Below, piece by piece: positions 41,766 to 63,838 of a stretch of DNA of 64,000 bases. Position numbers and translations under genes: made by a program. Where the stretch lies: contig NZ_BONQ01000057.1 of the NCBI RefSeq assembly GCF_016862795.1, positions 1 to 64,000 of the forward strand, in the 5' to 3' direction. The stretch's first letter is position 1. Every line of letters begins with the position of its first letter. This stretch comes from Dactylosporangium siamense (GTDB taxonomy: Bacteria > Actinomycetota > Actinomycetes > Mycobacteriales > Micromonosporaceae). Below the pieces are notes generated by a model, which saw only the letters and a program-made list of their open reading frames with translations, was not told where the DNA came from and searched no databases.

Positions 41766-41824
41766 GGTCGTGAGGTCTGCTCCGGTCGACCTGCGCCGCA
41801 TCGGCGCTGCCGGGCAGGCGCCGT

Positions 41825-41951
41825 CGAGTCGCGATGTTCGCGAGCCGGGGACCCAATGAGTCCTCTGGGGTGTATCCGTGGCCGAGCCGCGGTAGGGCGA
41901 ATCTTCCCGCCCGAACCCGTCAGCTAACCCGGTAGGCGGCACCGGAAGGAG
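41825..41951 (+). promoter_or_regulatory. Cyclic di-AMP riboswitch (ydaO/yuaA class)
   Basis: The conserved core is plain: GAGCCGGGGACCCAATGAG, then GGGGTGTATCC, GGTAGGGCGAAT, and CCCGAACCCGTCAGCTAACC with GGTAGGCGG and GGAAGGAG at the end (41850-41951). These are the signature sequences of the ydaO class, which in actinobacteria precedes genes for wall hydrolases and usually turns them off when c-di-AMP is high. The 5' limit is approximate. It lies about 125 bp before the start codon of the secreted protein gene. Confidence 0.9.
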
Positions 41952-42074
41952 TCTGCCGATGATGGCCGCCCGCTTGCCGTCGTAGCGCCTCACCACTGAT
42001 TCCCCCCTTCCAGCACGCCGTGCCCGTCACGACGTGCCGATGCCGCATGCCTTTTCGACGAAGGAATTTCAGTA

Positions 42075-59308: not shown

Positions 59309-59390
59309 GCGGTCAGCGAAGCGTCTTGGGCCGCTCATCGTGTGGCAGGTTTGGTTCAGGCCGACGCTGGAGCGCAGCGGAGGCGGCGGA

Positions 59391-60569
59391 ATGAACGATC
59401 CCTACGCCCCCACCCCCGCCGACCGGTTCTCGTTCGGACTCTGGACCGTGGGCTGGCAGGCCCAGGACGTCTTCGGCTCGGCGTCGCGTGCGGCGCTCGA
59501 CCCGGTCGAGTCCGTGCACCGGCTGGCGGAGCTGGGGGCGTACGGGGTGAGCTTCCACGACGACGACCTGATCCCGTTCGGCAGCGACGACACGGTCCGC
59601 GACAAGCTGATCGGCCGGTTCCGGGAGGCCCTGGACACCAGCGGTCTGGTGGTGTCGATGGCGACCACGAACCTGTTCGGCCACCCCATCTTCAAGGACG
59701 GCGCGTTCACCGCCAACGACCGCGCCGTCCGCCGCTTCGCACTGCAGAAGGTCCTGCGCAACATCGACCTCGCCGCCGAGCTCGGCGCGCCGACCTACGT
59801 GCTGTGGGGCGGCCGCGAAGGCGCCGAATCCGGTGCCGGCAAACAGATGCGGGCCGCGCTGGACCGGTACCGCGAGGCGATCAACGCCCTGTGCGCGTAT
59901 ATCAGGGAGCGTGGGTACGACATCCGCCTCGCGATCGAACCCAAGCCCAACGAACCACGCGGCGACATCCTGTTGCCGACGATCGGCCACGCGCTCGCCC
60001 TGATCTCGACCCTGGATGAGCCGTCGCGGGTGGGGCTCAACCCCGAGGTCGGGCACGAGGAGATGGCCGGGCTCAACTTCGCCCACGGCATCGCCCAGGC
60101 GCTCTGGCACGGCAAGCTGTTCCACATCGACCTCAACGGCCAGCACGGCCCGCGCTTCGACCAGGACCTGCGTTTCGGCGCCGGTAACCTGCGCGGCGCG
60201 TTCTGGACCGTCGACGTGCTGGAGAACAGCTCCGGCTACCCGACCGCGTACGCGGGACCCCGCCACTTCGACTACAAGCCACCACGCACCGAGGACGCCG
60301 CAGGGGTGTGGGTCACCGCCGCGGCGTGCATGCGCAACTACCTGATCCTCAAGGACAAGGTCCGCACCTTCCGCGACGACCCCGAAGTCTCGGCGGCGCT
60401 CGCCACGGCCCGCGTCGACGAGCTGTCGGTGCCGACGCTGATGCCGGGGGAGTCCCTGACGTCGCTGCGGGCCGAGGAGATCGACGTCGAGGCGGTGGCC
60501 GCCCGCGGGATGGCCTTCGAACGTCTCGACCAGCTGGCCATGGAACACCTCCTGGGGATCAGGGGGTAA
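59391..60569 (+). CDS. xylA: Xylose isomerase
   Basis: A 392-residue actinobacterial-type isomerase converting D-xylose to D-xylulose (and glucose to fructose). Strong matches to the family are [32 protein letters not shown] with the catalytic His, the metal-site [29 protein letters not shown] and [23 protein letters not shown] precedes the ATG. The presence of this gene ties the operon to xylose. No xylB kinase is in the window. Confidence 0.96.
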
Positions 60570-60653: not shown

Positions 60654-60681
60654 GCCGGCGCGGCGTTGATGTCGCGCCGGC
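60654..60681 (+). terminator. Hairpin downstream of xylA
   Basis: A perfect 9-bp stem (60654-60662 with 60673-60681) and 10-nt loop, 85 bp after the xylA stop and about 75 bp before the ThuA start. It may end or attenuate the operon. Confidence 0.4.
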
Positions 60682-60755
60682 AGACGGGCACAACTGCACA
60701 TGAGACCCATGACGGCGCGACGGCGCGCGCTCACGCCCATCGTGAAGGAACTGTC

Positions 60756-62303
60756 ATGCCCAGAAGCTCAGCCCGGAGATGGTTCGCCGCCGCTACGGCG
60801 GGCCTGCTCGCCGCAGCAACACTCAACCCGGTGCCCGCCAGCGCCGCCGACGCCCCGTACAAGGTTCTCGTCTTCTCCAAGACCGCCGGGTTCCGCCACT
60901 CGTCGATCTCCACCGGCATCGCGGCCGTCCAGTCGCTCGGTGCCGCCAACAACTTCACCGTCACCGCCACCGAGGACGCCGCCGCGTTCACCACCGCCAA
61001 CCTGGCCCAGTACCAGACGGTGGTGTTCATGTCGACGACCGGCGACGTGCTCAACGACGCCCAGCAGACCGCCTTCGAATCCTGGATCCGGGGCGGCGGC
61101 GGGTACGTCGGCGTGCACGCGGCGGCCGACACCGAGTACAGCTGGCCGTTCTACGGCACGCTCGTCGGTGCCTGGTTCTCCTCGCACCCGGCGATCCAGC
61201 AGGCCACCGTCAACGTCGAGGACCGCACCCATCCGGCGACGGCCCACCTCGGCGCCACCTGGGTCCGCACCGACGAGTGGTACAACTACCAGACCAACCC
61301 GCGGGCCACGGCACACGTCCTGGCCTCGTTGAACGAGTCGTCGTACTCGGGTGGCACGATGAGCGGCGACCACCCGATCACCTGGTGCAAGACCATCGAC
61401 AGCGGGCGGTCCTTCTACACCGGCTTCGGCCACACCGAGGAGAGCTACGCGGACACGAACTTCAGGAACCTGCTGCTGGGCGCCATCCGGTACACGGCGA
61501 AACGCGTCGACGGCAACTGCGCCGCGCCGGTCGTGCCCTCCGGCAACGTCTACCAGGGTGAGGCGTGGTCCTCCACCGGCGGCGTCCAGGTCGCGAACCA
61601 CACGCCCGCCGTCGGCGGCAAGACCGCCGGATACATCGACAACAACGACTGGATCGCGTTCAACGGCGTGAACCTGTCCAACGTCACCGGCGCCACCCTG
61701 CGCACCTCGTCGGCCGGCGCCGGCGGTACCGTCGAGATCCGCGCCGGGTCGACCACGGGCACCCTGCTCGGCAGCGTCGCGGCCACCAACACCGGTAGCT
61801 GGGACACCTTCCGCGACGCGTTCACGCCGCTGTCCACCAACGCTTCGACCGTGCTCTACCTGGTGTTCAAGGGTACGGGCAGCTCGCTGTTCGACCTGGA
61901 CCAGATCACCCTGACCCGGTCCTCGACCACGCGTCAGGGTGAGGCGTGGTCGTCGAACAGCGGCCTGCAGGTCGCCGCCCACGGCCCCGCCACCGGCGGC
62001 CAGACGGCCGGCTTCATCGACAACAACGACTGGGCTGCGTACTCCGGTCTGTCCCTGAGCACCGCCGCCGGTGTCCGCGTCAAGTGGTCCTCGGCCGGCC
62101 CCGGCGGCACGATCGAGTTCCGGGCCGGCTCGGCGACCGGCGCCCTGCTGGGCAGTGTCGCGGTGGCCAACACCGGCAGCTGGGAGACGTTCCAGACCGC
62201 CTCGGTGCCGCTGGCGACCAATGCATCGACCACGCTGTGCCTGGTGTTCCGCGGTGGCAGCGGATCGCTCTTCGACGTCGACGAGTTCACGTTGTTCTCC
62301 TAG
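60756..62303 (+). CDS. Secreted ThuA-domain protein with two CBM6-like modules
   Basis: A 515-residue product with a signal peptide (about 1-29, ending ASAAD). A ThuA-like domain (30-255; KVLVFSKTAGFRHSSI, GGGGYVGVHAAADTEYSWP) is followed by two related CBM6-type modules (264-385 and 389-515), both starting QGEAWSS and ending with a Phe-Asp strand. The ThuA part is nearly the same as that of the protein at 7088, which carries a keto-sugar hydrolase in place of the second modules. It may act on oxidised glycosides at the wall. The 3' end, including the stop codon, is in a 21-bp tandem repeat. Confidence 0.82.
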   Translation: MPRSSARRWFAAATAGLLAAATLNPVPASAADAPYKVLVFSKTAGFRHSSISTGIAAVQSLGAANNFTVTATEDAAAFTTANLAQYQTVVFMSTTGDVLNDAQQTAFESWIRGGGGYVGVHAAADTEYSWPFYGTLVGAWFSSHPAIQQATVNVEDRTHPATAHLGATWVRTDEWYNYQTNPRATAHVLASLNESSYSGGTMSGDHPITWCKTIDSGRSFYTGFGHTEESYADTNFRNLLLGAIRYTAKRVDGNCAAPVVPSGNVYQGEAWSSTGGVQVANHTPAVGGKTAGYIDNNDWIAFNGVNLSNVTGATLRTSSAGAGGTVEIRAGSTTGTLLGSVAATNTGSWDTFRDAFTPLSTNASTVLYLVFKGTGSSLFDLDQITLTRSSTTRQGEAWSSNSGLQVAAHGPATGGQTAGFIDNNDWAAYSGLSLSTAAGVRVKWSSAGPGGTIEFRAGSATGALLGSVAVANTGSWETFQTASVPLATNASTTLCLVFRGGSGSLFDVDEFTLFS

Positions 62304-62373
62304 TTCGCAGTGTTGTTCTCCTGGTTTTCAGTGTTGTTCTCCTAGTTTTCAGTGTTGTTCTCCTGGTTTTCAG
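62290..62373 (+). repeat. Four-copy 21-bp tandem repeat across the ThuA gene stop codon
   Basis: Units start at 62290, 62311, 62332 and 62353, each like TGTTGTTCTCCTGGTTTTCA plus G. The first unit contains the real stop (TCC TAG). In the second and fourth units the matching codon is TGG, and in the third it is TAG again, all in the same frame. Copy number or base changes here would change the protein's end by seven residues per unit. Confidence 0.9.
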
Positions 62374-62556
62374 TCGTGGGCGCGGCTCACGACTGAACAG
62401 ACGGGTGGCGGGGTCGCGACGCCGACCGGCCCCGCTGTCCGGGCCCCGTCCGCTCGGATGCACCACAGCACCTGCACAACGTCCCGGGTGGTGACGCCGA
62501 CTCCCCCCGTGACAGGGCAGGTGCGATCCGGGCGGACGGGTCGCCTTTTTTGGCAG

Positions 62557-62585
62557 TTGTACTGGTGGGAACTGGTTCCTAGACT
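62557..62585 (+). promoter_or_regulatory. Possible promoter with palindrome in the spacer
   Basis: TTGTAC (62557-62562), a 17-bp spacer and TAGACT (62580-62585). The spacer includes GGAAC-TG-GTTCC (62568-62579), a symmetrical site that could be an operator. It would give the isomerase gene its own promoter, 139 bp upstream of its start. Confidence 0.35.
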
Positions 62586-62723
62586 GGTTTCTGCACCTGG
62601 TCGGCCCTTGGACAGGTGCGGGTGGGAGGCGCAACCCACCCGCGCCGCTACGCATGTCCTCGCCGGTCCGTTTGCACCTCTCCCTCGCGCCCTCATCACC
62701 GCCGTTACATCGGAGGAACGCTC

Positions 62724-63731
62724 ATGGCGCGTCCAATCACGCTCTTCACCGGCCAGTGGGCCGACCTGCCCTTCGAGGAGGTCTGCCGGCTGGCCTCGGA
62801 ATGGGGCTACGACGGCCTCGAGATCGCCTGCTGGGGCGACCACTTCGAGGTCGACAAGGCACTCTCCGACGAGTCCTACGTGGACCGGAAGCTGGAGACC
62901 CTGGCCAAGCACAACCTGAAGGTCTTCGCCATCTCCAACCACCTGGTCGGCCAGGCCGTCTGCGACCACCCGATCGACCAGCGCCACCAGGGCATCCTGC
63001 CGGCCCGCATCTGGGGCGACGGTTCCCCGGAGGGCGTGCGCCAGCGGGCAGCTGCCGAGCTTGCCGATACCGCCCGCGCCGCCCGCAAGCTCGGCGTGGA
63101 TGTCGTCGTAGGGTTCACCGGCTCCTCGATCTGGCACACCCTGGCCATGTTCCCGCCGGTGCCGCCGCAGATGATCGAGGACGGCTACCAGGACTTCGCC
63201 GACCGGTGGAACCCGATCCTCGACGTCTTCGACGAGGTCGGCGTCCGCTTCGCGCACGAGGTGCACCCCAGCGAGATCGCATACGACTACTGGACCACCA
63301 AGCGCACCCTCGAGGCGATCGGCAACCGGCCCGCGTTCGGCCTCAACTGGGACCCGTCGCACTTCGTGTGGCAGGAGCTCGACCCGGTGAACTTCATCTT
63401 CGACTTCGCCGACCGCATCTACCACGTCGACTGCAAGGACGCGAAGGTCCGCACCGGCGACGGCCGCCGCGGCCGGCTCGCCTCCCACCTGCCCTGGGCC
63501 GACATGCGCCGCGGCTGGGACTTCGTCTCCACCGGCCACGGCGACGTGCCGTGGGAGGACTGCTTCCGGGCCCTCAACGCCATCGGCTACAACGGGCCGA
63601 TCTCCATCGAGTGGGAGGACGCCGGCATGGACCGCCTCATCGGCGCGCCCGAGGCCCTGGCCTTCGTCCGCCGCCTGGCGTTCGACGCCCCGGCGGCCGC
63701 CTTCGACGCGGCGTTCTCGTCCTCGTCCTGA
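62724..63731 (+). CDS. Sugar phosphate isomerase/epimerase family TIM-barrel protein
   Basis: A 335-residue xylose-isomerase-like (AP endonuclease 2 fold) enzyme. [20 protein letters not shown] begins the barrel. Metal-ligand candidates are Glu in [11 protein letters not shown], Asp-His in [20 protein letters not shown] and Glu in ISIEWEDAG. It epimerises or isomerises a sugar or inositol derivative; the substrate is unknown. GGAGG precedes the ATG. It belongs to the catabolic region and is followed by a strong terminator. Confidence 0.88.
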
Positions 63732-63744
63732 TCGCTGTCCTGTG

Positions 63745-63780
63745 AAAAGGCCGGCCCCCTCGCGGGGGCCGGCCTTTTCC
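63745..63780. terminator. Strong bidirectional terminator
   Basis: GAAAAGGCCGGCCCCC, TCGC loop, and the exact reverse complement: a 16-bp stem with a T-run on the plus strand and the matching run on the other. It lies 14 bp after the isomerase stop and can also end the convergent gene. Confidence 0.92.
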
Positions 63781-63788
63781 GTGGCTCG

Positions 63789-63838
63789 CTGTTCCGTGGT
63801 TCGTCTTTCGGTGGTTCGCCTTTTCCGTGGTTCGCCTA
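63789..63838. repeat. Short tandem repeat between terminator and the last gene
   Basis: Three units similar to TTCCGTGGTTCGCCT (roughly 15-17 bp) run up to the stop codon of the last gene, which reads TAG on the minus strand in the last unit. Confidence 0.6.

Follow-up and report, generated by a model that had tools for sequence, protein, structure and literature searches.

A 21-bp tandem array at the 3' end of a ThuA-CBM6 gene in Dactylosporangium siamense, a probable lineage-private minisatellite, and a separate conserved RNA structure next to it

The gene for a protein with ThuA and CBM6 domains in Dactylosporangium siamense ends within an array of four head-to-tail 21-bp units that is very probably a private minisatellite, produced by slipped-strand duplication at the 3' end of this gene in a single Dactylosporangium lineage, and for which no function can be supported. 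The sequence behind the array (62406-62551) is a conserved structured RNA that is separate from the repeat and looks like a candidate control element for the next gene. The window, i.e., the entire stretch of DNA analysed here, comprises 64,000 nucleotides of contig C57 from a draft genome of 12.7 Mb in 296 contigs; the features of the locus are given in Table 1. The ThuA domain precedes the CBM6 domain; the open reading frame of this gene is listed from its first start codon, the true start being probably at 60756, and its stop codon, TAG at 62301-62303, is located in repeat unit 1. The product of the TIM-barrel gene falls below all NCBIfam cut-offs (the best match is TIGR04379, with 45.9 of the 290 bits needed). 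The hairpin that begins within unit 4 lacks a T-run and is a possible candidate for the terminator of the ThuA transcript.

Table 1. Coordinates of the features at the ThuA-CBM6 locus
Feature	Coordinates	Strand	Remarks
Xylose isomerase gene (xylA)	59340..60569	+	ORF from first start; NCBIfam TIGR02631, 638.6 bits (cut-off 447)
ThuA domain + CBM6 gene	60666..62303	+	PF06283, 266.8 bits; PF03422, 148.1 bits in two stretches
Repeat unit 1, carries the ThuA-CBM6 TAG stop	62291..62311	+	GTTGTTCTCCTAGTTCGCAGT
Repeat unit 2 (TGG), 3' of the stop	62312..62332	+	GTTGTTCTCCTGGTTTTCAGT
Repeat unit 3 (TAG), 3' of the stop	62333..62353	+	GTTGTTCTCCTAGTTTTCAGT
Repeat unit 4 (TGG), 3' of the stop	62354..62374	+	identical to unit 2
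Hairpin, begins within unit 4	62369..62397	+	10-bp perfect stem; hairpins also at this place in congeners
Conserved structured RNA, separate from the repeat	62406..62551	+	146 nt; two hairpins with like loops and a long-range stem
RNA hairpin H1	62407..62436	+	10-bp stem; loop CGACGCCGAC (62417-62426)
RNA long-range stem P3, 5' arm	62444..62456	+	13-bp stem
RNA hairpin H2	62485..62509	+	stem CGGGTGG/CCCCCCG; loop TGACGCCGACT (62492-62502)
RNA long-range stem P3, 3' arm	62529..62541	+	outermost pair not formed in the window; T6 follows at 62546-62551
Sugar isomerase/epimerase-like TIM-barrel gene, 3' of the conserved RNA	62724..63731	+	PF01261, 148.4 bits

Tandem Repeats Finder (TRF) delineates the array at 62291-62374, with a period of 21, 4.0 copies, 92% matches, no indels and a score of 140. 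The best score among 40 first-order Markov shuffles of the window is 78, so that head-to-tail copies of this quality are far above chance. Both TRF and a comparison of the units bear out the preliminary description, according to which one in-frame codon reads TAG in units 1 and 3 and TGG in units 2 and 4. Unit 3 is one base apart from units 2 and 4, and unit 1 is two or three bases away from the rest. The alternation is not as remarkable as it may seem, since a single substitution and one two-unit duplication suffice to produce it. Because translation of ThuA-CBM6 ends at the first TAG, units 2-4 are untranslated; when the frame is read onward through the array, the result is FAVLFSW FSVLFS* FSVLFSW FSVVGAAHD*.

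A syntenic ThuA-CBM6 orthologue was identified in four of the six congeners searched (G002, G003, G004 and G006) but not, at the threshold used, in G001 and G005. None of the four orthologues contains a repeat or an insertion: each has a single gene end with TGA, followed by a hairpin-like stretch, which supports the alternative in the preliminary description that the array is simply a duplicated gene end. When up to 2 mismatches are allowed, only one of the 354 family genomes searched contains the unit pattern, solely at the ThuA-CBM6 locus of the source genome, and the array is thus private to this lineage. In the source genome itself, a search with up to 3 mismatches detects, besides the array, only two isolated sites, one with 2 and one with 3 mismatches. 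Most of the matches of the repeat region elsewhere in this genome correspond to query positions 6-45, i.e., the coding end of the gene, and not to the array. A dispersed repeat family or a mobile element was considered and rejected, given that the unit occupies one place in its own genome and occurs in that one family genome.

The preliminary description also proposed that a slip would alter the C-terminus by set steps and that the array might be a phase-variable tail. Slips were enumerated over all breakpoints (n=64 for 21 bp, n=43 for 42 bp and n=22 for the 63-bp deletion). The stepwise change holds for some contractions: a 21-bp deletion appends WFSVLFS at 12 of the 64 breakpoints, and a 63-bp deletion appends WFSVVGAAHD at 12 of the 22. 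It fails for all expansions of 21 and 42 bp, which leave the protein unchanged (0/64 and 0/43 breakpoints, respectively), and likewise for 42-bp deletions, which alter nothing at any of the 43 breakpoints. The orthologues end in FTLYNT*, FTLHAL*, FTLHAL* and FTVHNS*; the variation of these last residues (LYNT, LHAL, LHAL and VHNS) disfavors a functional tail of the ThuA-CBM6 protein. A switch of the tail through some contractions is conceivable in principle, but a phase-variable tail finds no support.

The array is best read as a minisatellite that arose recently by slippage, starting from the end of a gene. The following course of events, including slippage as the mechanism and the part played by the hairpin, is an inference. 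The 21-bp piece that was duplicated would have consisted of the last three codons, the stop codon and the eight following bases; since translation halts at the first TAG, the later copies would have been free of selection. In one untranslated copy, TAG would then have become TGG, together with a change of CG to TT, and the alternating TAG/TGG series would have resulted from a later two-unit (42-bp) step. The hairpin directly 3' of unit 4 may have aided the duplication by stalling replication. Unit 1 probably represents the oldest form because its TTCGCAG is closest to the ACCGCAG of G006 (D. aurantiacum). In unit 4, the change of CG to TT permits pairing with the ACTGAA behind it and lengthens the hairpin, so that this change might possibly be templated. 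The length of the unit, a multiple of three, and a frame that is open save for the TAGs, as in a coding repeat, count against a minisatellite, but these properties need no selection.

Three other explanations were weighed against the minisatellite. The array could be regulatory, acting as untranslated RNA at the 3' end of the transcript or setting the distance from the ThuA stop to the conserved RNA, a reading favored by its position between the stop and the hairpin, 31 nt short of the conserved RNA; however, the congeners retain both a hairpin and the conserved RNA without any array, and the predicted fold of 62270-62440 is not more stable than those of shuffled sequences (z -0.35), which makes such a role very unlikely. 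We consider a phase-variable C-terminus, in which slips would swap TAG and TGG in the first unit and thereby add WFSVLFS or WFSVVGAAHD, to be slightly less plausible again: the enumerated contractions do produce exactly these tails, but no expansion changes the protein, the array is missing from all four orthologues, the tail is not conserved, and four imperfect copies are a poor substrate for slippage compared with the known phase-variable tracts. The draft status of the assembly, with its many contigs, raises the possibility of an artefact, which appears the least probable of the three given that the units differ by substitutions, both flanks of the array align to G006, and 84 bp is shorter than the usual read length.

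Unrelated non-coding arrays are common in the sampled genomes, so that the 21-bp array is one of many. On a rough gene map of our own making, on which all these counts rest, 798 kb of the source genome contain 30 non-coding tandem arrays of unrelated sequence, 10 of which score 130 or more and comprise 3 or more copies; 200 kb of the congener G004 contain 5 such arrays, and 200 kb of G009, which belongs to another genus, contain 15. On contigs C83, C17 and C77 of the source genome (L157-L196), there is about one non-coding array per 27 kb, several of them between convergent gene ends. Among the 37 relatives of the gene that have a readable stop, out of 80 loci fetched, 8 carry an array within -60 to +200 of the stop, each with a different sequence and none with the present unit. 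Of the 30 arrays, 3 have a perfect hairpin no more than 20 nt away, against 0.52 expected, and 11 of 500 random placings reach 3. A general rule of hairpin-driven tandem repeats was rejected, the enrichment being weak, the gene map rough, and two cases making no rule. As a separate observation, a long hairpin (AAAAGGCCGGCCCCC...GGGGGCCGGCCTTTT) is present 3' of the TIM-barrel gene (63745-63837), with a degenerate array directly after it; this array (63776-63837; 15 bp, 4.1 copies, 79%) adjoins the terminator-like hairpin.

Bacterial minisatellites, or VNTR loci, consist of head-to-tail units of about 20 bp, are private to lineages and are mostly intergenic. The present array resembles them in its head-to-tail units of about 20 bp and its restriction to one lineage, and is known from one genome of the species. 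A literature search on repeats in Dactylosporangium found nothing relevant. Arrays that start in gene ends have also been reported for Borg elements (PMC9879509). The Borg units are perfect and A-enriched, whereas the units described here, from an actinobacterial host, show 1-3 base differences.

The alignment of the congeners shows that the DNA 3' of the repeat is far more conserved than expected of a spacer. The homologous sequences were aligned without fitting to a structure, and the structure was drawn from one row of the alignment; in the resulting alignment of 26 sequences, 95.3% of the cells are paired. Pairs that have changed on both sides number 12, compared with 5.2 in shuffles, and there are 39 double-change cells, compared with 11.0, a number that none of 500 shuffles attains, whereas sliding the structure along the alignment reduces pairing to 37-53%. 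The element thus contains covarying helices, as is characteristic of structured RNA. The H1 loop, (A/C)GACGCCGAC, is invariant in all 26 sequences; GCCGAC is present within the H2 region of all 26 as well, and a scan places it in a loop closed by 4 bp or more in 25 of them but finds a stem of only 2 bp in L272. The H2 stem contains one mismatch both in the window and in G006. Because G-U pairs are found in every main helix, RNA accounts for the element better than a DNA palindrome does. A protein-coding origin of the conservation was rejected, given that the aligned pieces range from 135 to 151 nt in steps that are not divisible by three.

The distribution of the RNA rests on a covariance model, R1, that was built from five Dactylosporangium sequences and run against 150 family genomes. 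At E<=0.01, R1 detects the element in 26 of these, including the 5 training genomes; independently of training, it is present in 21 of 145 genomes, namely a further Dactylosporangium and 20 members of six other genera. The matches cover the full length of the model. R1 also gives up to 43.8 bits on the reverse strand of the loci from which it was built, which overlaps the range of the weaker matches (38-78 bits), so that R1 scores alone are insufficient. A second model, R2, built from 26 of the 27 loci, assigns all 27 between 73.5 and 133.4 bits, compared with at most 27.3 bits on 998 kb of other DNA (from the source genome and G004); since R2 was built from the other 26, only L276, with 73.5 bits, is independent of it. 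Across the phylum, R2 identifies the source genome and the family member G009 among 396 genomes, with 7 candidates scored per genome, a weak negative beyond these two. The short pattern GGGTGGTGACGCCGACTC is a noisy probe, with hits in 40 of 354 genomes at up to 1 mismatch and exact matches only in five Dactylosporangium genomes.

An Rfam 15 search of 61900-62900 reports no match over the element at E<=1, so that it is assignable to no known Rfam family. Nine of the 26 homologous loci were scanned at E<=1 and likewise give no match over the element; two sub-threshold matches appear, one of which, in L253, touches the edge of the element with 26.4 of the 77.5 bits needed. We found nothing on this RNA in the literature, including term searches of two bacterial RNA surveys; it is called undescribed on the basis of the absent Rfam 15 match combined with this limited literature search. 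At gathering thresholds, the only Rfam 15 match in the whole window is a c-di-AMP riboswitch (RF00379) at 41812-41953 on the forward strand, with 82 bits compared with the gathering score of 38.

At each of the 27 loci, one of two proteins starts 36-251 nt downstream of the RNA on the same strand; of the hallmarks of a riboswitch, this leader position is the one observed. In 6 Dactylosporangium loci it is the TIM-barrel protein, and in the 21 others a protein that starts with M-x-TG(V/I)W, the single scanned representative of which (from G136) belongs to the myo-inositol-1-phosphate synthase family. In the loci inspected, the M-x-TG(V/I)W gene is followed by genes for a UbiA protein of the SCO3242 family (368.5 bits, cut-off 260; the EboC model yields 139.7 bits, under its cut-off of 250), a TIM-barrel protein, a TatD-like protein (scanned in G009) and a phosphodiesterase. 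This inositol-1-phosphate-synthase-type operon resembles the ebo clusters as they appear in parts of PMC5133447 and PMC6282210, although we do not call it one. Upstream of the RNA the genes vary, with xylA and/or ThuA-CBM6 in Dactylosporangium and, at many other loci, a Gfo/Idh oxidoreductase behind a sugar-binding protein. At two loci from two other genera (L280 and L284, in G014 and G368), a gene that is ThuA-like by eye is located directly upstream of the RNA. A role of the RNA as a general companion of ThuA was rejected, given that 3 of 80 ThuA loci carry it, all from Dactylosporangium; the same 80 loci include a reverse-strand self-match in L049 and a weak reverse-strand match, with 26.3 bits, in L097.

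Position and structure suggest that the RNA is a candidate leader that would act by attenuation in some members and at another step in the rest; a run of at least four T follows the long-range stem at 10 of the 27 loci. Tentatively, and with somewhat less than even confidence, the element could represent an undescribed class of cis-acting RNA of the Micromonosporaceae, in which the loops with the GCCGAC core would bind a ligand or an RNA-binding protein and the long-range stem would serve as an attenuator for a sugar or cyclitol pathway that includes the TIM-barrel isomerase in Dactylosporangium and the inositol-1-phosphate-synthase/SCO3242-EboC-like operon in the other genera. The TwoAYGGAY and mini-ykkC/guanidine-II RNAs likewise consist of two hairpins with the same conserved loop. 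Unlike them, the present RNA has (A/C)GACGCCGAC and GCCGAC-core loops rather than ACGR or AYGGAY, possesses a long-range stem and has no Rfam match. The name TwoAYGGAY appears in a table of PMC2864571.

The array matters little in itself and shows that gene ends in GC-rich actinobacteria gain private stutters that leave the protein unharmed. If the neighboring RNA is a cis-regulator, it would constitute a new class of RNA whose gene context is clear, and it would offer a way to approach what is sensed or made by the poorly understood EboC/SCO3242-like operons.
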